From positions 1-49,485 of IMG/VR virus record IMGVR_UViG_3300044530_000685: a stretch of DNA of 49,485 nucleotides. One strand, 5' to 3'. Position 1 is the stretch's first letter; each line of letters opens with the position of its first letter. The translations under genes were made by a program, and so were the position numbers. Of the stretch, positions 806-36,412 are shown piece by piece. The DNA comes from a virus. The notes below the pieces were generated by a model, which did no database searches, was not told the DNA's origin, and saw only the letters and a list, made by a program, of their open reading frames with translations.

Positions 806-3800
806 TTACAGTATAAAAGGGTTAATATAAATATATCCTGAAGGATTTACATTACCACCTTTCTTTTTAGTTCTTGTTTGACTTCCATACATTCCCATTC
901 CAATATTTGCATTAGCTCCTGTGCTAGCAGTAGAACCTGCAGCAGCTGCTTTCTTAGCTTCTATACATGATTTTATAATTGCACTGTCTGCATTTGGATT
1001 AGCTTGAGTACATTCATTTTTTGCTTTCTGCCAGTCAAATCCAGTACCACCACTACCTTGTCCTGTAAACTTTCTATTACCTGGTTGATAGAACATTCTA
1101 CCACCTACTCCAGGAGAAACAGCATAGTTAGGATACATTTGGTTTAATGCATCTGTCTGCCATCTATTAGTAATAGCATTGGTATAATAGTTTCTTAAGT
1201 TGTTTCTCATTGCTAATTTAGAATTATCAAACTGTTGGTTAGCAATAGTATTCTGATCATATAATTTTTGAGCAGATGCTTGTTTCAACATTGATTCTTG
1301 GTTAGCTATGTCAGTACCTTTAAGTTCAAATTGATTTGCTATGTTAACATTAGCATTGTTGTACTTAGAAAGTATATCTGCAGCATTCTTAGCAGCTTGA
1401 CCTTGTACACTAGATGATCTTGCAGACAATGCTTGAGGTCCTGCAAACTGTGCCATACCTTGGGTTTGGATGTTTGCTTGTTCTGCATTAGCAGCAAGTT
1501 CTCTAGTAGGATCTAAGAATGTAGGTCTTGGTTGTTGTAGTTCAACTCCCGGTGCCCACGGCATATATTTCTTAATACCCATTAAGTCTCCAAATGCACC
1601 TGTAGTTTTAATAGTATCTTGTAACCACCATTCAGCAGGAGGTCCTGGTACATCTACATCTACCTCAGTTTCACAAGGAGGACAGTTACCATTTGCATCT
1701 GGTGTTAAAGGAATTTTATTACCTTGAGTATCAAAACATGGACAAGGATCTTCTTCTGGTTTTGGACAAAGTGCAGGATCACATTTTCCTTGTGGATCTG
1801 CTGCACCATAGTTAGGACCTTTAGGATCAGTACATTGACATATTGTTTTAGGATCATCAAAAGTCATAGTTCTAATCCCAACACCTGGTACATGACCTAT
1901 TGTTGAATTACCATGAGATGGTCTAGTTAGATCTCCAAAGTCATCAACTGGAGATATTCTAATTCCTTTGTTACTGGTATATATAGCAGACATTGATGAT
2001 TCATCATCAACACCTCTTTGAAGATTACCGTATAAATTTCTTAATGCATATTGTGTATCAGGATCAAGTTTATCATAATCTTCAATAGTTCTTGCATAAC
2101 CATGAAATGTTGCTTGTTGTAGTGCTCTTGTACTAGCATCATTTTCAAGTGGTTCTCCAATACCAGCAGATAGTTGTGTTACTGATAATTTTGGATCTGT
2201 AGCATCATCAACACCACCATAAGTTTTTGCAAGATATCTTTTTGCTGCAAGAAAATCTGCTTCAGTTTTTATAGGTTGACCTGTTCCAGGATTTTTAATT
2301 ACAATACCTTTATCTAGTGCAGCTTTGACACCACTCCAACTTCTAAATTCTCTTCCCCCATCACTAAATAATTCAGGATTAATTCCACGTCCTTGAATTT
2401 TAAGATTTCTTTCTTCATGCTGTAAAAATTGTTTTAATACTGTTGCTTTATCTGGTAAAGCATACCCTCTTTCTTCCCAAGTTGAACCTTGAACACCATG
2501 TTTATTTACATAAGATCTTGTATCTTTTAATGCTTCTATTGTTTTATTATATATAGCATCTGCAACTTTTTCATCTTTTAAGTTTTGTTCTAATAAATAA
2601 TATTGTGCAGCTGCAAATTTAGCATCATCACTATTAGAACCACCCCAATCATTTAAATCCATACCACCGGTGTCACTAGGTGCTACAGGATCAAATCCTT
2701 TAAGAGTTCTTGACTGACCTGATGCATCTATTACAGTAATAGGATCTGTAGTTTTATTTATTTGTTTATTTCTATATGCAGTATACACAGCTCTTTCATA
2801 ATCTGCATCAGAAGCGTAGTCAGATCTTTTTATTATTATACCATTATTTGCTTTAGGTAGTGGAAACATTGGTCCTGATCCAGGAATAGGTTTTGGTCTA
2901 CCTTGATAATTCTGAGACATACCAGATCCCATAGCCATACCATACTCTGCTTCAGGAATATCTTCTTCATCATAGTCTGGTTCATCATAAAACGGCATAT
3001 CATAACCACCCATAGACATACCATACATAGCCATAGGAGCTTGTTGTTGCATCTGTTGTTGCATCATCATGTCCTCTTCAGACATTTGTGGTTCTTCTTG
3101 ACCACCTTCTAACTCTTGTATAGTTTGTTGTATAAGACCAACTGCTTCTTCTTGTGAAGCACCTAACTGCATAAATACTTCTACTATAGCTTCAGGAGGA
3201 AGTTGATTTTCTAAAAGACTTGCAACTATTTCTTGAGGATCTACACCTTGTTCTAGTGCAGCACTAACTTCTTGAACAATTTGCATCATGTCATCACCAC
3301 CTTCTTCTTGTGGTTGCTCCATCATTTGTTGTTCCATACCTTCTTCTGCTCTTCTCAATCTCCTCATACCACCACCATACATCATCATTTCTTCTGGAGA
3401 TGGTTGCTGCATTTGTTGTTCTTCAGGTTGTGCAACAGGTTGACCTTGATTCATTTGTTCTGCTGCAGCAATTTGATCTTCTGATTGCATTGTTTCTTCA
3501 GAACTCTTTTGTTGAGCATACTTAGACTCTAGTTGTTCTGTAAGTTGTTTAATCTCTTGTTTAGGTAATACTTGTTCATCAGTAATACCTTTTGCTTGCA
3601 TACAAGGTCTAGCAACAGCAGGAATACCTTGAGGGAATCCTTTCTTTGCTTCTTGTGCAAGTGCAAGACATCCAAGTTTAACAACAAACTTTTTAATCAT
3701 TAACTCAGCTGTTGTTCTATCTAATTTATCTGAGTTAGGATCTTCTAGAATTTTTCTATATTTCTGTATGTCATATTGTTTAGCAAGTTCTGCAGGAGTA

Positions 3801-4186
3801 TATGCTTTACTAGTTCCTGCTTTACCAAACATTTCAAGTATCTCAGGATCTTTAATTCTCATACCTCTAGTATCACTAAAGATAAAAGTATCATCAGGAA
3901 GATTTAAAGGTACACCACCTGCATGGTGTCTTGGTCCTTTAATAATTTTGTGTTCTGGAAATCCATCACCATTGATATCACCATATACTGTTTCACCTCC
4001 TTCTGCCTCTAGATTTGCTTCTTCTCTAGGGACAGCGGTGATATATTTACTTTCCTTAAGTTTTGGTGCACCAATATATGCATTATAATCCCTACCTCCC
4101 ATTGCAGGTACATCATTAACTAATGCTCCTTGAACTTGATATCCAGTTCTTGCTGTTGGTAATTTTTTTATTTTAACTTTTATCAT
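806..4186 (-). CDS. Large cargo-type virion protein, 1126 aa, with Q/M-rich linker and duplicated helical domain
   Basis: No catalytic function is recognised. The N-terminus MIKVKIKKLPTARTGYQ carries the basic LPxAxxG signature seen at the start of several neighbours. Residues about 45-125 form a compact domain with a DINGDGFPEH calcium-loop-like segment at 70-79 and a LNLPDDTFIFSDT strand pair. A Q/M/E-rich linker follows (about 220-300) with a basic tag RRLRRAEEGM at 275-284. Next comes a short helical domain (299-359) that is clearly paralogous to one in the 1315-aa protein. A second basic tag, LPKANNG, precedes a long middle region. A cysteine-rich patch near residues 770-840 includes CQC, CPCF and CPPC. 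The C-terminal 250 residues are helical and Asn/Gln/Ala-rich, ending near KKKGGNVNPSG. I recall N-termini like this from uncultured marine phages. It is probably carried inside the virion, by inference from its place after the muzzle gene. Confidence 0.8.
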   Translation of the reverse strand: MIKVKIKKLPTARTGYQVQGALVNDVPAMGGRDYNAYIGAPKLKESKYITAVPREEANLEAEGGETVYGDINGDGFPEHKIIKGPRHHAGGVPLNLPDDTFIFSDTRGMRIKDPEILEMFGKAGTSKAYTPAELAKQYDIQKYRKILEDPNSDKLDRTTAELMIKKFVVKLGCLALAQEAKKGFPQGIPAVARPCMQAKGITDEQVLPKQEIKQLTEQLESKYAQQKSSEETMQSEDQIAAAEQMNQGQPVAQPEEQQMQQPSPEEMMMYGGGMRRLRRAEEGMEQQMMEQPQEEGGDDMMQIVQEVSAALEQGVDPQEIVASLLENQLPPEAIVEVFMQLGASQEEAVGLIQQTIQELEGGQEEPQMSEEDMMMQQQMQQQAPMAMYGMSMGGYDMPFYDEPDYDEEDIPEAEYGMAMGSGMSQNYQGRPKPIPGSGPMFPLPKANNGIIIKRSDYASDADYERAVYTAYRNKQINKTTDPITVIDASGQSRTLKGFDPVAPSDTGGMDLNDWGGSNSDDAKFAAAQYYLLEQNLKDEKVADAIYNKTIEALKDTRSYVNKHGVQGSTWEERGYALPDKATVLKQFLQHEERNLKIQGRGINPELFSDGGREFRSWSGVKAALDKGIVIKNPGTGQPIKTEADFLAAKRYLAKTYGGVDDATDPKLSVTQLSAGIGEPLENDASTRALQQATFHGYARTIEDYDKLDPDTQYALRNLYGNLQRGVDDESSMSAIYTSNKGIRISPVDDFGDLTRPSHGNSTIGHVPGVGIRTMTFDDPKTICQCTDPKGPNYGAADPQGKCDPALCPKPEEDPCPCFDTQGNKIPLTPDANGNCPPCETEVDVDVPGPPAEWWLQDTIKTTGAFGDLMGIKKYMPWAPGVELQQPRPTFLDPTRELAANAEQANIQTQGMAQFAGPQALSARSSSVQGQAAKNAADILSKYNNANVNIANQFELKGTDIANQESMLKQASAQKLYDQNTIANQQFDNSKLAMRNNLRNYYTNAITNRWQTDALNQMYPNYAVSPGVGGRMFYQPGNRKFTGQGSGGTGFDWQKAKNECTQANPNADSAIIKSCIEAKKAAAAGSTASTGANANIGMGMYGSQTRTKKKGGNVNPSGYIYINPFIL
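3110..3292 (-). repeat. Duplicated helical domain, copy in the 1126-aa protein (residues 299-359)
   Basis: This stretch encodes EVSAALEQGVDPQEIVASLL followed by ENQLPPEAIVEVFMQLGASQ. The same pattern appears in the 1315-aa protein at 8062-8244 (QALQQGGRPEEIITQLLQGQ, IPPEAIMQIFVELGMSQEQ). Both are preceded by a basic tag and a Q/M-rich linker. Confidence 0.8.
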
Positions 4187-8953: not shown

Positions 8954-11900
8954 TTATTCTTCTTCTACAATGTATCCTCCTTGAACATATTTGTCTATTT
9001 CCTTTTTAGTAAGTTTCATAGCAATACCTCCATTTTTATTTTTCCAACCTGGTTGAGAGGTTATTTGATTCCAAGCATCTCTGCCTTTGAACGGTTTACC
9101 TTTATTTATATCTTTCATCAAATCTTGTTTAAACATTTGATGTCTTTTTTCTATTAGTGCATCCTGTAAAGCTTGTGCTTCTACACGGGACAAACCATAA
9201 ACAGTACGTGATAATGTATTAGAAATACTTTTATTTATTATATCATCAGCCCACGGTAGTCCTCGTAAACTTTCAATATAAGTAAATGGATTTTGTCTTC
9301 TTAACCAATCCTTATCAAAAGCATTAAATTTTTGAGCACTTGGAAATAGAGAATCAAATTTAATATCTGGTTCTCCTAACACTGAAGCTTTAAATGATGA
9401 ATAGTATTCACCAACTGTTTTAGGAAAAGGTTTACCTTTTGCAAGAGCACTTAAAGCTCCAGTACCTAAAGGATCAATCATTGTATATCCAAAACCAAGT
9501 GTATCATTTATTAATTTTCTTTGTGCTTGATTGCTATAAAATTTACCCTTTGGAAATTTAAATTCATCTGTAAATATTTCAGCCAAATGTGGATATTTTT
9601 TAATAAATCCAGGAACATCATCAACAGAAAGAAAATCCATAAATTCATTTTGATGTTCATCAAATTGTTTTCCTAATTCTACAGATTTATTTAAATCAGC
9701 ATCAGTCCAAAAGTCAGATTTAGATAATGTTTTTTGTGGTCCATCAAATGCATTCATCATAAACCTCCTTGCTTCCCAACCATCTGAAAAATCTTGAAAT
9801 CTAAAATCTCCTAATTTATTTAAATCAATACTAATATCAGAGCCCTTAACATTATTTACATTCTTTTCTAATTCAGGAAAATTTGTTTTTGTTTCTTTAG
9901 TTTGATAATCTAAAAAATCAAGTATACCTTGTTGTTGCCAATTTGCAGCATTACCATAATCTAAAGGATCAACATTATATATTGCTTCACCAAGTTTATT
10001 TTTATCATATGGAATACCTTCAAAATTAATTGGATATTCTCTTTTAACATTGCCATAGGTAGATATTCTTTCTGTAGGAGTAAAAACATTTCCAGCTTTT
10101 ATTCCTGTGTTAAAAATAGTACTACTTGGTCTATATACATCTCTACCAAAAACTGTTGGAGTTTTTCTTCTAAGTCTAAAACTTCCAGGAGGCCATCCCA
10201 TTTTTGCTTGAGGAAGATCTCCACCTTCTTTTCTTAATCTTAATGGTTCTTTAGGATTTAATCCAGTAGCATTTAATCCAGAACGATTAAAATATTGTTG
10301 ATTAAACAATGCAGGATCCATTTCAAAATTATATTTATCATTTAATAATCTTGTACCAGCAGGTAAATAATTTGGTGCTCCACGTAGTAAGTCTTTACCA
10401 AATCCTAAAGCAGTTTTTCCACCATGTAAACCTATCATTCCTGCCATACCTAAACCAAATAAATTTTCTTTTACTTTATCTGAATCCAAATGTGCTAAGA
10501 AATCTAATGATGATGATGAAGGTAAAGAGCTTGATATGTGTGCTTTTTCTTTTGCTTTTTGTATTTCATTCCATATATTTTGACCAGCTTCAACTCCAAA
10601 CCCTTGTATTTCTCTACCTGTGTATGGATCTATTTCTCCAGTTGGCATAAATGCATCTTTAACAAACAGACCAGTTAATCCGGCACCAGGTGTTACTAAA
10701 TTTCTAGTAGCATTATATAATGCATTTTTTGCTAACCCTCTTGCCCCTACTTTAGATAAAGTCTTTACACCAGGTAATAGTTTTGTAGCAGATGCTGCTC
10801 GTAATACTTTTGATACAGGTAAAACAGAAAATGCTGTATTTAATAAAACATCTCCAACTTCTTGTTCTGGATCTCCTTCATATAAATTACGTAGACCAAT
10901 ACCAACATTTGAAGCAAAATGTGCAGGGTTAAATAAATTAGCTATTTGAGTTCCAAAATCACTATTTAAATTATTATATCTATCTAAAAATAATCTTGAC
11001 CCACCTGGACCAAGATTTGCTTCCCATGCTCCTATGTTTCGTGATGTAGGTGCATCAGGCATAAGACCAATCATAGGATCTGCTGCATTTCCTGATGCCC
11101 ATTGATTTAAAGTATAAACAGGTTGATTAGCTAAACTACTTATTTGTTGACCAGCCTTTTCTAAAAAATTAGATAAGGTAGGTTTTTTCCATAATGAATT
11201 TTCATCTTGGTAGTCTTGCCATTTTTTTTCTGCACGGTTCTTTTCTACATCATATATCTTTTCACCATACTTAGGATCTTTATTATAATTTGCTATAAAC
11301 TCTTGTGCTTCAGGAGTTTGTTTCCATACATCAAAAGGCAATGTTTCATATTCTTCTTCTCCTGTGTACTTTGATCCATCATAACCTTTATAATTAAGAC
11401 TTTCTGAACCAGGATTTATTTTATTTGTATAAGCATATCTAAGAAGTTCTTCTGCTGCATTATTTCTTGCATCACCCATAGCTTTTTTAAGATCACCTGA
11501 GTTTTTATATGCTTCTGCATTTCTGGTACCTTTATAGTCTAAATAAACAACAGAAGCTTTGTCACCATAATTACCAAGTTGTGAAACATCTAATTTTTTA
11601 TCATGATAACTTTTTACACTACCATCAGCATTATATTCTTTAGGAACTTTTGCTATATAACTACTATTAAATGTTTTAGCTTTTGTAAAAAAGTCATTTA
11701 ATATTTTTGCTCTTTTAGCAACATCATCTTGTGAGTTTCCTTCAATAGAATTTATTTGTTGAGCAGCTTTGTTAAACTCATTTGCATAATCATTATGAAC
11801 ACCATATACAGGAGTTATGGGTGCTATTTTAGTACCAGTATTATTATAAACAGCATCATACAGCATATTATTCATTTCAGTATACCTTTCTTGCTGCTGA

Positions 11901-13192
11901 TCTACTTCAGAATCTTTTATTTGTTTTTCTGTATCTGTGTAATATTTATTTGTGTCACTTTTGTATTGAGATAATATATTAGCTTCATTTTTATCACCAG
12001 CTCTATTACCAAAACCATAACCATAGTAAGTTGTATTTTTACCATTTACATTTATATTTCCTTGAGCATCTGTTTTAACTTTTTTAGAATCTACTTTTTC
12101 CCAATTAAAAGGATTAATATATTCTTTACCACTTTCTTTATCTTTACTAAATGGACTTTCAGATTCTTTTGTTTCAGTTCCTTTAATTAAACTAAAATCA
12201 TCATTGGCATATTCATTAGTATACTTGTATACATTTCCATACTTATCTTTCTTATACAATACACCACTGTAATCTACAAAATAATTATCAGCATTATTTT
12301 GAAAATCAAGATCATTGGCAATTCCAGTAAATTGAGTAACACCTTGTTTTGAATTATAACCTGTTTTAACTAATTGTCTTTTAGCATCTTCAGCTGAATA
12401 ACCTTGCTTAGTTAAATTATTAATCATTTCAGCACCTTGTTTAATATGAAATTTATCAAGGGCTCCTAAGTAATCTCCAAATTCTGTTTGAAGTTGTTGA
12501 GCATTTAGTCCATGATGTTTTTCAAATTCACCAGGTTTCATACCTGCCTGAGACATCATGTGTGCTATTCCTTCTTTAGGGTAAAGATTAAATTCATAAT
12601 TACCATCACCCAAGTCTTTCTTTTCTACATAGTAATTTGCTCTATCAGGATCTTCAGTATTGTTATACCAAGCTTCAAAATTTGGATTAGATTCTACTTG
12701 TTCTTTAGATAAACTATAATATGGTTTAAGAGTTTCTTTTTTATATTTATTACCTTTGTCTACAGCTTTTTGTATACCAGATATATAAGATTGATATTTA
12801 TCTTTATCTTCTTGTTCTCTTCTGTTTTTGTTATATATATAATCACCTAACATCTTTGAAGCAAGTTCAGGATTTTCAAATGTACTATATGATTTATTTA
12901 ATTTTGCTAATCTTCTATCAAAATTCTTTTGTGTCATTTCTGTATTTCTAGCTTCTAGAATACTAAGAATTTCATCTTCAGTTAAACAATTTCCTTCAAA
13001 ATTTTCTCTTCCAGGAGGGCACTCTATACCTTGCACAACATCACTAGACATTTGATTCCAGTAAGAAGGTTGATCAACACCTTGGACTTCTACCATAGGT
13101 TGATCTTCATATGTTTTCTTTTTTCTTTTTGACCTATCAGTCTCTCCTCCTGGTGCATATTGTGGAATGCTTGTTATTCTATACTTTGCCAT
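8954..13192 (-). CDS. Large cargo-type virion protein, 1412 aa, YAPGG start and GGYIVEEE tail
   Basis: No known enzyme is seen. The protein starts MAKYRITSIPQYAPGGETD (YAPGG at 12-16), followed by a cysteine loop CPPGRENFEGNC. A long, polar, mostly helical central region follows. Glycine/alanine-rich hydrophobic patches occur near 830-880 and again around LFGLGMAGMIGLHGGKTALG, and could be membrane-active. A second tag, GGDLPQAKMGWPP, near residue 990 starts a separate C-terminal module. The last 28 residues contain NGGIAMKLTKKEIDKYVQGG, a motif also found inside the 1658-aa protein. Its start codon overlaps the stop of the preceding 1658-aa gene by one base (TAATG), so translation is probably coupled. 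It is likely an ejected or internal protein by position. Confidence 0.8.
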   Translation of the reverse strand: MAKYRITSIPQYAPGGETDRSKRKKKTYEDQPMVEVQGVDQPSYWNQMSSDVVQGIECPPGRENFEGNCLTEDEILSILEARNTEMTQKNFDRRLAKLNKSYSTFENPELASKMLGDYIYNKNRREQEDKDKYQSYISGIQKAVDKGNKYKKETLKPYYSLSKEQVESNPNFEAWYNNTEDPDRANYYVEKKDLGDGNYEFNLYPKEGIAHMMSQAGMKPGEFEKHHGLNAQQLQTEFGDYLGALDKFHIKQGAEMINNLTKQGYSAEDAKRQLVKTGYNSKQGVTQFTGIANDLDFQNNADNYFVDYSGVLYKKDKYGNVYKYTNEYANDDFSLIKGTETKESESPFSKDKESGKEYINPFNWEKVDSKKVKTDAQGNINVNGKNTTYYGYGFGNRAGDKNEANILSQYKSDTNKYYTDTEKQIKDSEVDQQQERYTEMNNMLYDAVYNNTGTKIAPITPVYGVHNDYANEFNKAAQQINSIEGNSQDDVAKRAKILNDFFTKAKTFNSSYIAKVPKEYNADGSVKSYHDKKLDVSQLGNYGDKASVVYLDYKGTRNAEAYKNSGDLKKAMGDARNNAAEELLRYAYTNKINPGSESLNYKGYDGSKYTGEEEYETLPFDVWKQTPEAQEFIANYNKDPKYGEKIYDVEKNRAEKKWQDYQDENSLWKKPTLSNFLEKAGQQISSLANQPVYTLNQWASGNAADPMIGLMPDAPTSRNIGAWEANLGPGGSRLFLDRYNNLNSDFGTQIANLFNPAHFASNVGIGLRNLYEGDPEQEVGDVLLNTAFSVLPVSKVLRAASATKLLPGVKTLSKVGARGLAKNALYNATRNLVTPGAGLTGLFVKDAFMPTGEIDPYTGREIQGFGVEAGQNIWNEIQKAKEKAHISSSLPSSSSLDFLAHLDSDKVKENLFGLGMAGMIGLHGGKTALGFGKDLLRGAPNYLPAGTRLLNDKYNFEMDPALFNQQYFNRSGLNATGLNPKEPLRLRKEGGDLPQAKMGWPPGSFRLRRKTPTVFGRDVYRPSSTIFNTGIKAGNVFTPTERISTYGNVKREYPINFEGIPYDKNKLGEAIYNVDPLDYGNAANWQQQGILDFLDYQTKETKTNFPELEKNVNNVKGSDISIDLNKLGDFRFQDFSDGWEARRFMMNAFDGPQKTLSKSDFWTDADLNKSVELGKQFDEHQNEFMDFLSVDDVPGFIKKYPHLAEIFTDEFKFPKGKFYSNQAQRKLINDTLGFGYTMIDPLGTGALSALAKGKPFPKTVGEYYSSFKASVLGEPDIKFDSLFPSAQKFNAFDKDWLRRQNPFTYIESLRGLPWADDIINKSISNTLSRTVYGLSRVEAQALQDALIEKRHQMFKQDLMKDINKGKPFKGRDAWNQITSQPGWKNKNGGIAMKLTKKEIDKYVQGGYIVEEE
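8957..9040 (-). repeat. Tail motif copy 1 (NGGI...EIDKYVQGGYIVEEE), end of 1412-aa protein
   Basis: This segment encodes the last 28 residues of the 1412-aa protein. It matches an internal segment of the 1658-aa protein (16726-16806) nearly position by position, and more loosely the end of the 249-aa protein (4200-4262). The common pattern is hydrophobic, hydrophobic, x, L, x, x, x, E, I, x, x, Y, V, x, GG, then an aliphatic/acidic end. Confidence 0.75.
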
Positions 13193-16100
13193 TATTTTAT
13201 TTTTTCAAATGTATAACCTAATTTTTTTAGTTTTTCCATAGTAGCTTTATTTATCTCATCACCTAGTTGGTAATCAGGTGTACCACCATATTGAGCTTGT
13301 TGAGGTGCATACTCATCTATTGATCTTGATTCATTCTTTGCCATCTTATTAAGAAGCATTTTTAAATCTTGAGGACTATTTATAAATCTTTGAAAATCAA
13401 TTAAAGCAGGAACAAATGCATCTGAATTAGGATCAGTCCATCCTTTAGTTTTAGCTTTCTGATAAAAGTTTTTTAGATCATCATCTGTAATTTCTTGATC
13501 TGGTTTAAATCCAGCAAGTCTTCTTAATTCCATAATTCTCTTACTGATCTCCTCACCATAATTACCTGAGATGTAATCATAAAACTTTCCTTCTTCTTTT
13601 GATACTTTATTTTTAGGAACTAATGCTTGATTAACTAAACCTGTTTCATACTCTCTTAGTTTGTGTACAGGATGATTTTTCATTTTTTTATATGTATCCA
13701 TTTCAGGATCTAGCATAGAAGGAGACGTAAGGTAATGACCTTTTTCATGAAACAAAACTTCATCTCTAATAAAAGGAGACGTTATCTGTGAAGAATTTAA
13801 AGATATTTTTCCTGTCATAGGATTATACATACCTGAAGAATCACCTAATCCTTTAGTATCATAATCTATTTCAGGAAACTTTTCTGTTCTTTTTAATAGT
13901 TTCGGTCTTGCTTCATTTAATAATTTTTGACCTTCTACATCTTGTATAACTCTATTAGTATACCAGTTCTTATACCATTCTTCAGCAGGTGTTTGTTCTG
14001 CAGATACATCTAAAACACACTCACCGGTAGCAGTACTTCTAATATATCCTTCTGGACATGGTTCACCACCTTCAGCATATTGATTATCTTCTAAATTACT
14101 TTCTGCACTAAATGGATTACCTAATAAAGCAGCTGTACCAGCACCTATTACATATGGAGCAAATGATGGAAGTTCATTCATTGTGTTAGACAATAAACCA
14201 AAGTTCTTAGGTTTATTTGTCATTATATCAAAAATTCTAAGTGGAAACTTATCTTCTTTTTTTAAGTAATCCTTATAGTAATCTTTTATCATTTTAGAAT
14301 TTACTTTTTGATAAGGATGTTTTATAATATTGTCTTGTAACATATTTTCTCTTAACTCAGCTAAAAAAGGACTTCTTTCAAAACCTCCATTAAGATTATA
14401 ATAAGATATAGCCTTTTGTAAATAATTACCATCTTTATTTAAATGTTTATAAAAAATATTATTATTAGATGCATTAGACAAATCAAAATCTAATTGATTT
14501 TTTAAATCTAAACCACCAAGTTTTTCATCTATTGATGTACGTCCTACTCCACGTTTAACACCTGGTAAATGAATTATCTCATGCATACCTACACTAGGTA
14601 ATTCTTCATTAGTAAAAAATTTAGGATTTATAACAAAAGCATTTTGATTTCTATCATAGAAAGCACCACCTTGTGTATTAGAATCTTCTAATAATTTAGC
14701 ATAAGTTTCTTCAGCTGTTTTGAGTTGATTATCTAAAGTTACTGAAGTATTAAAATAATCATTGTCACTTATTAAATTTTGCTCATGATATGAATCAATT
14801 TTATTTTGTTCAGCTATTATATCATTTATAGTTTTTGTATAAGTAATAGCCTCTTGATTTAGATTTCTTGTATTTGCTAAATCAGAAACCATATCTTTTG
14901 AATCAAAAAATAAATTAGCTTTTAAAGCAGGAGTAGTATTAATTAAATTTTGTAATCTTCTTTGACCTTCAGCTGAATTCCATAAATTAACAGTTCTATC
15001 TTGTACTGCCTTTATAGTTTGAGCTGCTGACAAATTTGTTGCACGATCTTTTGAATTACCAATTGTTATTTTATTTATTCTATGTTCAGGTTCAGGTAGT
15101 TTACGAGACTTACGTAATCCTTTAGGGGGCCAACCTCCTGGTGCATAACTATCCAATTGTCCACCATATTTATCACTAACTAAAGTTGATTCTTGTCTTA
15201 GTTTTTCATCATAAGCTTTTCTCTGCATTAATTCTTCAAGTTGTGTATTGTATTCTTCTTTAGCAACTCTATTTCTTTCACGTAATTTAGGAAGTTCATT
15301 TTTAACATAGTTCTTCCAATCTTTTTTATATTCTCTTCTTGCCCTGTAATCATCCCAACTTGCAATTGGTACACCTCTAAAACTTGGAAATTTTACATTT
15401 TCTGCATTCTCTAAATCTTGGTGCATCTTACTAGTTGCATCAATATATCTTTCATTCCAACCTTTACGTGATTTATACAATTCAGGAGTTCCCTTTTCTC
15501 TATCATACCCAGTTATAAATCTTAGTAAAGGATCTTCTTTTTTATTTACAATTTTTGAAGATTTTCTTATTAAAGGTTGTGTATCATATCTTTGATTTAA
15601 AAATAACTTATATGTATTCTTTCTTTTTGGATGTGATTTACCTTCTGGAAATTCATATCTAGAAATACCCAATCCCTCTAACTCTAATTCAGGTGTTTCA
15701 TATGTAGGTATTTTTCTATCAAGAGACGGATCAGCATATGTATATTGTTTTTCAAAATCAATATTTTGTGCATCTTCATAACCATCAGCATCCTTTTTAA
15801 AAATTACATCAGGATATTCTTTAGTTACTAAAGATAAATTCATATTTTCTCTAACATAGTCATCTCCAATATCATAAGTTGAACCATGATAAAGTGAACA
15901 TTCAGGACATGGTTTAGCTTCTATGTTACCTTTTTTTCTTTTCTTTTGATAATCATTAAATAATTGATTCTTGATATTATCTGGTATATATTCAGGATCT
16001 TCATATAATTTTTTAAAGGCATTAATTTCTTTACTCATCCTTTTAGTAAAGTCACTATTTGGATCTTGGTCTGCTATATCACCAGAAAAAGTTGAAAACT

Positions 16101-18168
16101 TATATTCAGAATCTGGATTATAAGTTTGTGTCTCTCCAATCTTAGTTTTTAAACCAGCTTTTTGTATTTTATCAAGATTTTCTTTTTCTTCTTGTTTAAG
16201 TATTTGCCATTGTCTGTACTTTTCATACTGATGTGAATCTTTAGAATTTACATAGTATGTATTACTAGACTTGTCATAACCTTCTTTTTTATTAGGATCA
16301 ACTTCAACTTTATAATTAAGATCAGGATAAAAAGGTACAGATGTTAAATACTCATTATTATCAGAATATATAGTGTATGATCCTGCTGGTTGAATATAGA
16401 TATCACCATACTCATCATCAAATTCAGTACGTGTGAGGTTTAAATCTTGTGGCCAGTCCGTATACTTTCTTTCAAGTTTACTTCTATCAATTACTTTTTT
16501 ATTTTCATCAAGTACACCTGGTATAACTTTATAACCAATAGATTTGCATTTTCCTGTCTCAGGATCTTTTACATAACCATCAGGACATTTATCACCATAT
16601 CCTTCACACCATCCAGTTTCTGGATTATATGTATATCCATCAGGACATCTAGGTTCTCCATTTTCATCCATCATTGGTTTTACAGCACCACCTGGTGCAT
16701 ACTGATTTAATTCAGGTACAGAAATATCATCTTCTACTATATAACCACCGTCAACATATTTTTGTATTTCATCTTCTGTAAGATTAATACTTATACCTCC
16801 ATTTTTATTTTGGCTACCAAAGGTTGTAGTTTTTACGTTATTATTAGAAGGTATAAATGGATCATTTTTAATTTTTTCATTAATTTCTTTCTGTGCTTTT
16901 TTTTGTTTGTATTGATTTAGTGGAAACTTCATCCCTGCATTAGCAGAAAAACTTCCAGGCAGCATTAGACTTTGGTTATAGTTTACATTACCATAGAAAT
17001 AACCAGGAAAATTCTTAGGCATAAATTTAGGTAAACCTTCTACACCTGCATTTAGATTAAAACCAAAATGTGGTCTTGTACCTATACCAGCTGTTACACT
17101 AGGGTTTACATTCCATTTATAACTACCCGGTCTATAATTTTTTGAGTGATATTTATCACCTCCATAAAACTCAAGACCACCTTTTAATCCTAAACCAATA
17201 TTGTTACTTGGATCCCAATCTAATTTTATTTCTCCTTCACCAGCTGCTTTGTAACCATGAGGTTGTTTAAATTTATCATAACGGTAATTAGCTGATAAAC
17301 CTCCTACAACAGGACTTTTTTCTACAGCTTTTCCAAAACCTTTTAAAAATTTACCAACACTTTCTTTAGGTTTTTCTTTTTCAGGATCCCATTTATCTGG
17401 ACCTTCCCTATATGCTGAACCAGTCATCTCACCTGCATTGTACATAGCAAGATCATCATAATATCTTTCCCAGGCTCCCTCATATTGATCCTTACCCATT
17501 TTTTGTATTGCCTGTCCTGCAGCTTGACCCAAAGATGAATCATAAGGTTTTCCTAAATAACCTTTTAATGCCCAACCACTATCTTTGTTTTTTGATATAT
17601 CTCTAGTCAATCCTGTAGTAAAGTTTACCCCATAAGAAGGATTTGACATTCCTATAGCTTTTGTGCCTTCTCCCAACAAACTTTTTCCAGAGGTAAAATC
17701 AGTAAGATTTTGTTTCATACCTATAGGATAAGCCTGTTCATTTGTCATATAAGGACTTATTCCTACTTCAGTATTCTGAATAGCTTTAACCATTCCTTTT
17801 GGCATCCATTTTGGAAGTATTCTTTTAGAATCACCATAATTTTTTTTCTTTGATCCTGGTGGCTCATCAGAATATCCTCCTGGTGCATATTGTATTAAAC
17901 CACCTTCAGCATAATATTGAGCTCTTGGATCAAAGATTTTATTCTTTTTAGATTTAGGTTTCTTAAATAGAGGATGTTGTGCAAACAACCTATTTGTTGC
18001 TTCAAAACTTCTTGAGTATGATTTAGGACTTTTACCTTTTGGTAGACTAGGTCTTTTATTAGATCCACCCCTCTTAAAATTATTATCTAAGCCATTATTA
18101 GTATTAGTAGAATTCTTAGTTTTACTAAGATTTCTAACAGCGTCAATAAGTACTTTTTTATTATACAT
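13192..18168 (-). CDS. Modular 1658-aa virion protein: porin-like beta region plus two HExxH metalloprotease-like modules
   Basis: The product reads as several proteins joined together. Residues 1-85 are basic. Tags YAEGG (86-90) and YAPGG (94-98) lead into a region rich in alternating Gly/aromatic strands (about 178-417), reminiscent of an outer-membrane beta-barrel and ending near AGMKFPL. A tail motif ending GGYIVEDD (455-481) is followed by YAPGG (490-494) and two CPDGY...PETG.C loops (508-541). A long charged middle region ends at YAPGG 1008-1012. The next module holds HEIIH at 1196-1200, and after YAEGG at 1364-1368 another holds HEKGH at 1474-1478. HExxH is the zinc-binding signature of zincin metalloproteases; I did not identify the third ligand with confidence. 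One-base overlaps link it to the muzzle gene before it and the 1412-aa gene after it. Fusion or polyprotein status is inferred. Confidence 0.8.
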   Translation of the reverse strand: MYNKKVLIDAVRNLSKTKNSTNTNNGLDNNFKRGGSNKRPSLPKGKSPKSYSRSFEATNRLFAQHPLFKKPKSKKNKIFDPRAQYYAEGGLIQYAPGGYSDEPPGSKKKNYGDSKRILPKWMPKGMVKAIQNTEVGISPYMTNEQAYPIGMKQNLTDFTSGKSLLGEGTKAIGMSNPSYGVNFTTGLTRDISKNKDSGWALKGYLGKPYDSSLGQAAGQAIQKMGKDQYEGAWERYYDDLAMYNAGEMTGSAYREGPDKWDPEKEKPKESVGKFLKGFGKAVEKSPVVGGLSANYRYDKFKQPHGYKAAGEGEIKLDWDPSNNIGLGLKGGLEFYGGDKYHSKNYRPGSYKWNVNPSVTAGIGTRPHFGFNLNAGVEGLPKFMPKNFPGYFYGNVNYNQSLMLPGSFSANAGMKFPLNQYKQKKAQKEINEKIKNDPFIPSNNNVKTTTFGSQNKNGGISINLTEDEIQKYVDGGYIVEDDISVPELNQYAPGGAVKPMMDENGEPRCPDGYTYNPETGWCEGYGDKCPDGYVKDPETGKCKSIGYKVIPGVLDENKKVIDRSKLERKYTDWPQDLNLTRTEFDDEYGDIYIQPAGSYTIYSDNNEYLTSVPFYPDLNYKVEVDPNKKEGYDKSSNTYYVNSKDSHQYEKYRQWQILKQEEKENLDKIQKAGLKTKIGETQTYNPDSEYKFSTFSGDIADQDPNSDFTKRMSKEINAFKKLYEDPEYIPDNIKNQLFNDYQKKRKKGNIEAKPCPECSLYHGSTYDIGDDYVRENMNLSLVTKEYPDVIFKKDADGYEDAQNIDFEKQYTYADPSLDRKIPTYETPELELEGLGISRYEFPEGKSHPKRKNTYKLFLNQRYDTQPLIRKSSKIVNKKEDPLLRFITGYDREKGTPELYKSRKGWNERYIDATSKMHQDLENAENVKFPSFRGVPIASWDDYRARREYKKDWKNYVKNELPKLRERNRVAKEEYNTQLEELMQRKAYDEKLRQESTLVSDKYGGQLDSYAPGGWPPKGLRKSRKLPEPEHRINKITIGNSKDRATNLSAAQTIKAVQDRTVNLWNSAEGQRRLQNLINTTPALKANLFFDSKDMVSDLANTRNLNQEAITYTKTINDIIAEQNKIDSYHEQNLISDNDYFNTSVTLDNQLKTAEETYAKLLEDSNTQGGAFYDRNQNAFVINPKFFTNEELPSVGMHEIIHLPGVKRGVGRTSIDEKLGGLDLKNQLDFDLSNASNNNIFYKHLNKDGNYLQKAISYYNLNGGFERSPFLAELRENMLQDNIIKHPYQKVNSKMIKDYYKDYLKKEDKFPLRIFDIMTNKPKNFGLLSNTMNELPSFAPYVIGAGTAALLGNPFSAESNLEDNQYAEGGEPCPEGYIRSTATGECVLDVSAEQTPAEEWYKNWYTNRVIQDVEGQKLLNEARPKLLKRTEKFPEIDYDTKGLGDSSGMYNPMTGKISLNSSQITSPFIRDEVLFHEKGHYLTSPSMLDPEMDTYKKMKNHPVHKLREYETGLVNQALVPKNKVSKEEGKFYDYISGNYGEEISKRIMELRRLAGFKPDQEITDDDLKNFYQKAKTKGWTDPNSDAFVPALIDFQRFINSPQDLKMLLNKMAKNESRSIDEYAPQQAQYGGTPDYQLGDEINKATMEKLKKLGYTFEKIK
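16726..16806 (-). repeat. Tail motif copy 2, internal in the 1658-aa protein
   Basis: It encodes KNGGISINLTEDEIQKYVDG followed by GYIVEDD, residues 455-481. The same motif ends the 1412-aa protein. Here translation continues without a stop into another YAPGG tag nine residues later. This supports an old gene end now lying inside a longer reading frame. Confidence 0.75.
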
Positions 18169-35797: not shown

Positions 35798-36412
35798 TTA
35801 TCCGGCCATTTCATTATCAAGTAATCTAAGAGCAATCTTATCTGTACCAAAAGCTTCAAGTTTATCCATCCAAGTTTGAGTTTTATCATGTTCTTCCACT
35901 TGTTCTTTTAGATAAGCAAGACATAATTCATACAACATATGATCACCATCAGACAATGCATGATTAGCCATTTCTTTTATTTGTTTAGATACTTCTATTT
36001 CATGTTCAAATGACATCTTAATAATTTCAGGAAGACCTGAAAAAGTTTGTTTAGGTTGATCTAATCTAGGTGTAGCCGGTTGGATACCAAATGACAACAT
36101 ATACTTTCTTGCTATATCAGCATGTTTCATTTCTTCATCTGAGTATGTTCTCCATAATGCTGCTGCACCCATGTAACCTTCATTGTTTAACCACATAGAC
36201 ATTGATAGATATATTCTTGCTGAATATTCTTCTTGTTGTATTCTATAGTTAAGATAACTAGCACATGAATCATCTAGTAGAGGATTCTTTGTTTTAGTTG
36301 TAGGAACTTCTGTTGTAGTACCTTCACTAGGTTTAGAAATATCCATATGTTTATTTTCTAATCCCACAACTGTATTAGTTGGTCTTTTTAAAGATCTTGG
36401 TTTTGCTTCCAT
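35798..36412 (-). CDS. Ferritin (204 aa) inside the virion gene block
   Basis: Residues about 50-190 align by eye with bacterial ferritin of the FtnA type. All ferroxidase ligands are visible: Glu61 (QQEEYSARIYLSM), Glu94 and His97 (SDEEMKHA), Glu138 (FEHEIEV), and Gln171 with Glu174 (KEQVEEH). The YMGAAALWRTYS and LPEIIKMS segments also fit. Ferritins form 24-subunit shells that oxidise Fe(II) and store it as ferric mineral. A polar, Thr/Pro/Lys-rich extension of about 49 residues precedes the fold, longer than in cellular ferritins. The gene is 2 bases after the connector-like gene and upstream of a major structural gene, so it is expressed with virion genes. Whether it is packaged, controls Fe/oxidative stress during infection, or was taken from a host is open. 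Confidence 0.9.
   Translation of the reverse strand: MEAKPRSLKRPTNTVVGLENKHMDISKPSEGTTTEVPTTKTKNPLLDDSCASYLNYRIQQEEYSARIYLSMSMWLNNEGYMGAAALWRTYSDEEMKHADIARKYMLSFGIQPATPRLDQPKQTFSGLPEIIKMSFEHEIEVSKQIKEMANHALSDGDHMLYELCLAYLKEQVEEHDKTQTWMDKLEAFGTDKIALRLLDNEMAG

Follow-up and report, generated by a model that had tools for sequence, protein, structure and literature searches.

The DNA analysed here (hereafter the window) spans positions 1-49,485 of IMG/VR record IMGVR_UViG_3300044530_000685, 49,485 nt in all, and belongs to a crAss-like phage with PHROG matches to portal, terminase and major head protein. The portal-terminase packaging trait that accompanies polyvalent proteins is therefore present, and the window also matches CrAss_Ring_1 and CrAss_Ring_2. 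On the minus strand, at 13192-18168, lies an intact frame of 4977 bp, from ATG to stop, encoding a protein of 1658 amino acids (aa) that we call P0001. Its gene is the first behind the muzzle gene, a position termed g1 in this phage and in related contigs (locus labels L followed by a number), and its 1412-aa neighbour is called P0003. In crAss001, the genes for gp45, gp46 and gp47 stand behind the muzzle gene gp44 (PMC10172136), and we propose that P0001 is cargo because its gene adjoins the ring and muzzle genes at that same place. P0001 belongs to a family of mosaic proteins in which glycine motifs mark the boundaries between changing modules, and which carry a 27-residue tag that is absent from the upstream genes examined in the same loci.

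Searches with P0001 itself gave no PHROG match and one weak Pfam match, to the metallopeptidase DUF6782, a family that we take to be among the catalogued polyvalent domains. This match falls in module C, the third of four modules (A to D), at E 0.0036, and scores 17 bits where the cut-off is 27. The whole protein gave zero tblastn matches among 50,697 phage records, and it was met in one further record only, at 100% identity. No relative was found among genome contigs searched with the tag alignment and with the muzzle. The muzzle search brought 68 loci; the muzzle end lies inside the locus in 62 of them (one a duplicate of our own), and 60 hold at least part of g1. Complete g1 proteins, 38 including P0001, range from 307 to 2191 aa. 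Over a set of 37 g1 proteins, Pfam matches at E <= 0.01, some of them under Pfam's curated cut-offs, comprise SET (14), Phage_lysozyme (7), PG_binding_1, YkuD, DUF6782 and SAF (2 each), and single matches to Amidase_2, SLT, GNAT, ART-PolyVal and others; 12 of the g1 proteins were examined in detail. Combinations within one chain that exceed the Pfam cut-offs are SET with GNAT (L056), SET with ART-PolyVal (L018) and lysozyme with amidase (L034). SET domains, which are of the protein methyltransferase type, lie near the start of g1, for example in L018, L005, L048, L056 and L061.

The modules of P0001 recur among these proteins in other places and orders. Residues 86-459 are 74% identical to residues 514-886 of the L011 protein. 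Module B stands ahead of a conserved core domain in L038 (49-532) and behind it in L008 (203-674), module C is found ahead of the final tag in L047, L034 and L068, and module D closes the chain in L005, L006 and L007 and lies inside it in L008. More generally, of 661 matches between g1 proteins (at least 100 aa, below 80% identity), 219 pair segments whose positions differ by over 150 aa. Some g1 genes are short, encoding 307-458 aa and ending in a tag (L051, L053, L024 and L044). The original prediction, made from the letters of the window, had offered repeated fusion of once separate cargo genes as one origin for P0001. Where the fusion and swapping of modules is concerned, this idea has good support in the changed positions, the changed orders, the placement at gene ends and the short tag-ended genes, but no stand-alone gene for module B, C or D was found.

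The same prediction had pointed to YAEGG and YAPGG motifs, and these are indeed present in P0001 at residues 86-90 and 1364-1368 (YAEGG) and at 94-98, 490-494 and 1008-1012 (YAPGG), with a further YAPGG at residues 12-16 of P0003. Shuffling the P0001 sequence 2000 times gave 0.00 copies of YA[PE]GG on average and 1 at most, where the real protein has five. For the broader motif [YF]xxGG, the 132 cargo proteins gave 369 occurrences (72.5 expected) and the 438 upstream control frames gave 144 (109.6 expected). The proposal that the motifs stand at module boundaries holds for the family, because homology breakpoints cluster at [YF]xxGG. Using one protein per near-identical group, merging breakpoints no more than 10 aa apart and comparing with 2000 circular shifts, we examined 43 g1 proteins; of their 514 internal breakpoints, 116 are no more than 15 aa from the motif, against 51.0 expected and a shift maximum of 74. 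With the neighbourhoods of tag and core removed, 37 of 274 breakpoints still fall there (11.5 expected, maximum 23). The majority of breakpoints, 398 of 514, lie away from any [YF]xxGG. Cysteine loops of the form CPxGYxxxxxxGxC were also seen 2-33 residues behind a GG, at residues 508, 528 and 1371 of P0001 and in the g1 proteins of L008, L011, L014, L016, L026, L034, L038 and L048; there are 15 in the cargo proteins, some of them near-duplicates, and 3 in the larger control set.

A longer element had gone unnoticed, namely the 27-residue tag at residues 454-480 of P0001 and its variant at the C-terminus. A self-search matched residues 427-483 of P0001 to the end of P0003. A hidden Markov model (HMM) was built from the C-termini of cargo genes, with a consensus of roughly xxGGxIExxLTxEEIxxYxxGGYIVEDI. 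It gave 99 matches in 132 cargo proteins (129,511 aa), or 90 in 120 representatives after near-identical proteins were merged; this is the set on which it was trained, so that the fair part of the comparison is the upstream control, where 438 frames of at least 100 aa from the same loci (226,367 aa) gave 0 matches. In 49 of 82 complete cargo proteins the tag lies no more than 25 residues from the end and is the true C-terminus, while 50 copies were counted as internal, including those in frames cut by the end of a locus. A hydrophobic, glycine-rich stretch precedes some tags in a few proteins.

Two of the YA[PE]GG motifs mark borders of this longer element. In P0001 the tag is followed by DISVPELNQYAPGG, and relatives have a similar tail behind theirs, which makes the YAPGG at 490 part of a seam tail. 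The seams between modules B and C and between C and D consist of YxxGG alone; the YAEGG at 1364 aligns with a YQDGG that precedes a full tag in L034 and L068, and P0001 passes from it straight into module D without a tag. Module D is followed by an internal tag in L008 and by the variant YQLGDEINKATMEKLKKLGYTFEKIK in P0001, and thus both tag types occupy the same place. The 444-aa gene of L127 had been considered to stop within a seam, and this was rejected: its full tag lies at about 143-165, and its end is a copy of the seam tail (NDISVPSLNQ) without the tag helix, the next gene beginning about 70 bases on.

The number of seam-type tags per record varies little. One internal tag is present in 27 of the 38 complete g1 proteins, two in 6 and none in 5, and the C-terminus carries the tag in 17, the variant in 12 and neither in 9. 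Of these last 9, five carry a second internal tag and continue beyond it, in L034 for instance with an amidase. The tags were sorted into four classes, of which class IV, for which the HMM had one seed, was counted by regular expression (10) and by eye (L010 and L038). A seam alignment run against whole records matched all 34 of 34 IMG/VR records, with two matches in 29, three in 3 and one in 2. These counts are to be read with the make-up of the set in mind: 24 records came from the muzzle or P0001 searches and 10 from the tag search, several of the 24 contributed rows to the alignment, some are near-duplicates, variants III and IV are beyond its reach, and the matched frames were confirmed as cargo genes only in records whose loci were read. 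The idea of one tag per module was rejected, since exactly two seam-type matches are found in 29 of the 34 records regardless of gene length.

AlphaFold2 models from shallow alignments are consistent with this layout. Residues 1000-1658 (10 sequences) and 1-1012 (15 sequences) gave mean predicted local distance difference test (pLDDT) values of 54.7 and 50.0, with module D mostly at 60-90. In the model the internal tag forms a helix over residues 465-473 and then a strand over 476-481, with pLDDT of about 71-76 between flanks below 50, and nearly all residues of the motifs at 86-98, 490-494, 1008-1012 and 1364-1368 fall below 50 and nearly all are coil, which agrees with a linker role in these models. 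Motifs buried within continuous domains, which would have refuted the original prediction, were looked for in the models and not seen. Foldseek with the 1000-1658 model found nothing at E <= 0.001, the metallopeptidase zymogen 4jix appearing at E 1.8, and the VIA-align rows of the fold comparison cover mostly model residues 31-187. Among solved structures searched by sequence, P0001 had no match at E <= 0.1, and the module D alignment gave weak, unrelated rows with a best E of 0.12. The earlier description of module A as porin-like finds no support, as this module has no Pfam or PHROG match and a model of low confidence. The motif HEIIH of module C corresponds to HEFGH in L034, and the other aligned homologues do not span it.

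A second conserved part of g1 is the basic core domain. The core HMM finds one copy in 40 of 52 g1 proteins and in 29 of the 38 complete ones, never two, and none in other cargo genes. Its position ranges from residue 4 to residue 683. That the core is fixed in every phage was too strong a statement, given its presence in 40 of 52 g1 proteins only, though it is single wherever present. At the very N-terminus, 36 of 52 g1 proteins begin with M-x-NKKxL, and those of L011, L044 and L061 nearly so (window 18109-18168 in P0001); as a guess, this start might be a helix that binds inside the tail. The features of the locus are collected in Table 1.

Table 1. Features of the P0001 locus and its neighbours (residue numbers in parentheses).
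Feature	Window position	Strand	Basis or remarks
Muzzle gene, directly upstream of the P0001 gene	18168..23738	-	Pfam crAss_MUZ, E 5.8e-29
P0001, putative mosaic cargo gene (g1), first after muzzle	13192..18168	-	Open frame; PHROG none, Pfam weak
Basic core "ATNRLF" domain, ~60 aa (32-91), ends YYAEGG	17896..18075	-	HMM
YAEGG and YAPGG (86-98), core-domain exit	17875..17913	-	pLDDT <50; 4-residue helix 84-87, then coil
Module A (100-445), low-confidence model	16834..17871	-	P0001 86-459 vs L011 g1 514-886
Internal tag of P0001 (454-480)	16729..16809	-	HMM E 2.0e-13; matches P0003 C-terminus
Seam tail DISVPELNQYAPGG (481-494)	16687..16728	-	Alignment; relatives DISVPxLTKAQxG
Module B (499-1000), Cys loops at 508 and 528	15169..16674	-	Homologues in L038 and L008 g1
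YAPGG (1008-1012), between modules B and C	15133..15147	-	Coil, pLDDT <50 in both models
Module C (1015-1360), HEIIH at 1196	14089..15126	-	Homologues L034, L068, L047, L008, L041
YAEGG (1364-1368)	14065..14079	-	Alignment; module C relatives have YQDGG here, then full tag
Module D (1370-1625), Cys loop at 1371, HEKGH at 1474	13294..14061	-	Homologues L005, L006, L007, L008
C-terminal variant tag (1628-1658, ...YQLGDEINKATMEKLKKLGYTFEKIK)	13195..13287	-	Missed by 27-residue HMM
MAKYRITSIPQYAPGG, N-terminal motif of P0003	13145..13192	-	
P0003, 1412-aa neighbour	8954-13192	-	
C-terminal tag of P0003 (1385-1411)	8960..9040	-	HMM E 1.6e-12
C-terminal tag, variant III, of 249-aa protein P0005	4200..4283	-	HMM E 1.9e-8

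From this architecture we judge it rather probable that P0001 is a polyvalent-type cargo protein of a crAss-like phage, ejected from the particle and built from conserved docking tags and swappable modules. The N-terminal helix, basic core, internal seam tag and terminal tag would together hold the changing folded modules (A to D in P0001), which flexible [YF]xxGG linkers would join. Relatives may swap modules by recombination at linkers and tags, where genes would also split or fuse. The 27-residue tag most probably serves as a docking element by which a cargo protein reaches its partner while the particle forms; glycine linkers would let the string of modules thread unfolded through the narrow tail. 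For crAss001, Bayfield et al. infer partial unfolding of cargo at tail constrictions under 50 Å (PMC10172136). Once delivered, the modules could act in the host envelope or cytoplasm, by cutting peptidoglycan or modifying host proteins. The data show the mosaic build, the place of the motifs at boundaries and the lack of the tag in the upstream genes examined, whereas packaging, docking, threading and the enzymatic activity of modules C and D are steps that we infer.

A more specific form of this reading is also a more tentative one. The tag may be a portable cargo-loading code, a mini-fold that works internally or terminally and docks any module fused to it on one site of the particle, usually in two seam-type copies per genome, so that unrelated effectors could be exchanged behind conserved tags. 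If true, this would be a phage counterpart of polymorphic-toxin delivery. We know of no account of how crassviruses select proteins for loading into head and tail, and a tag that we met in cargo proteins alone, kept at a near-constant number per record amid changing modules, offers a short candidate for such a loading or docking signal. With tags read as punctuation, injected effectors of uncultured phages could also be located without relying on resemblance to effectors already known.

Several observations weigh against an ejected, tag-docked cargo protein. Both presence in the virion and binding by the tag are parts of it that we infer, and the tag was counted in the very set that trained its HMM, as stated above. 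On crAss001 gp44-47, gp49 and gp50, the core and tag HMMs gave no E-value better than 0.66, and the tag was not found in those stretches of Cellulophaga phi17:2, csAssE-Sib and Flavobacterium Fpv1 that were read; on sequence grounds, it is evidently not general to crassviruses. Even within the family no "fixed" part is universal, for among the 38 complete g1 proteins 9 are without core, 9 without a terminal tag and 5 without an internal tag. Across the relatives of module D the HExxH motif is not retained throughout: P0001 has HEKGH and L008 has HEFGH, but L006 and L007 have HEERT and L005 has HEGTSH. Finally, the linker label rests partly on low model confidence, which few sequences can also cause.

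It is possible, though we think it unlikely, that tags and GG motifs have no binding partner and play a passive part, as flexible spacers in which recombination and fusion are tolerated and which are kept for no other reason than module exchange there. Such spacers would fit the enrichment of [YF]xxGG across cargo genes, the low predicted order around the motifs and the breakpoints at [YF]xxGG sites that have no full tag, and the tag is missing at one or the other end in some g1 proteins. However, between unrelated modules the 27-residue tag retains a specific sequence together with a predicted helix and strand. It is present twice in 29 of 34 IMG/VR records, irrespective of how many modules there are, and was found in none of the 438 upstream frames. 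A spacer would need none of these properties.

The other alternative of the original prediction was a polyprotein cut at or near the tags, and this now appears improbable, more so than passive spacers. The chain would be synthesised in full and then split at, or close to, the tag's GG, by a phage or host protease or by HExxH modules in cis, to yield mature cargo proteins. The boundaries are of a GG type, modules stand at gene ends in relatives, and P0001 has two HExxH motifs (1196 and 1474). Metallopeptidase domains in polyvalent proteins have been proposed as cis processors by Iyer et al. 2017, who also cite proteolytic processing of P1 DdrB (PMC5512222); such cis processing could apply here as well. 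The window further encodes a trypsin-like protease, P0010 (29500-30762, minus strand), with a GDSGS motif and a PHROG protease match at E 2.6e-18. Against all this, where the tag ends a complete cargo protein, as in the 49 of 82 above, nothing lies beyond it to cut, and tag number does not follow module number. Nor is the GG invariant: 42 of the 48 internal tags have it directly ahead of the strand, against only 31 of the 51 terminal tags, and it follows the tag in 23 of 48 (this tally counts cut frames as terminal, hence a split of 48 and 51 in place of 50 and 49). HExxH is lost in some module D homologues, and neither of the protease types whose search was informative tracks the tag. P0010 was rejected as the processing protease, as it is found in 1 of 35 records (its own) and in 2 of the 48 loci with 10 kb upstream (our own phage and L044). 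Peptidase_S78 was found in 0 of 35 records with a working control, which counts against cleavage, while the 0 of 35 for Peptidase_C48 carries no weight because its control was silent; further protease families were not searched. The suspicion that P0001 is a chimeric assembly or a chance open frame, prompted by a metagenomic contig with one identical match elsewhere, can hardly be credited for a 4977-bp frame whose architecture recurs in dozens of other contigs.

Each of the known systems that resemble the proposed ejected cargo differs in some respect. The cargo proteins gp45-47 of crAss001 are likewise large and occupy the same position behind the muzzle, and gp45-47, gp49 and gp50 were found in virions by mass spectrometry by Bayfield et al. 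(PMC10172136). However, gp47, gp49 and gp50 are related to RNA polymerase (PMC10172136), there is no core or tag HMM match, and the main text of that structural paper, which describes the cargo, does not contain the words tag, signal, protease or cleavage. Polyvalent proteins are large phage chains that unite unrelated enzyme domains and for which packaging and injection are presumed (Iyer et al. 2017, PMC5512222). The g1 family resembles them in scoring ART-PolyVal, GNAT, lysozyme and DUF6782, while P0001 itself has DUF6782 alone, under the cut-off. For polyvalent proteins, the accessible portion of that paper mentions neither a short shared tag nor a core domain nor YxxGG seams, unlike what is seen in g1.

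Podovirus ejection proteins of the T7 gp14-16 type are internal virion proteins among which lysozyme and other domains are swapped between partners, as here (PMC8954989), but no shared repeated tag is described in the accessible sections of that source, and the module set of the g1 family is more diverse. The capsid targeting sequence of T4, carried by IPI-III and Alt, is a short peptide common to different internal proteins, again as proposed here (PMC7411985). It is, however, an N-terminal propeptide cut off by gp21 (PMC7411985), whereas the present tag is internal or C-terminal, and S78-type proteases were not found in any of the 35 records. No description of the tag was found in the titles and abstracts of the open-licence papers searched, and term searches within PMC7886860 and PMC11054128 gave no mention of it.

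Some neighbouring genes and one distant phage deserve note. Homologues of a 1126-aa cargo gene (window 806-4186, minus strand) were met in 34 of 35 records, our own included; this gene is well kept, unlike the hypervariable P0001, and ends in a short hydrophobic tail of YPFIL type that also ends cargo genes of several relatives. A 204-aa ferritin-domain protein (35798-36412, minus strand; Pfam Ferritin E 1.6e-24) lies among virion genes, and the gene adjoining it has a PHROG virion structural match. The record of Leptolyngbya phage Lbo-JY46 (PP438436.1), the sole cultured phage among the hits, gave no match to the seam alignment and a weak C-terminal tag match, E 0.0034. The tag-like end belongs to the gene at L074 24065-26089, and the neighbouring gene starts with MKIRIIGLPKAQIG. 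The stated host of this phage is a cyanobacterium, which is unusual for crAss-like phages.

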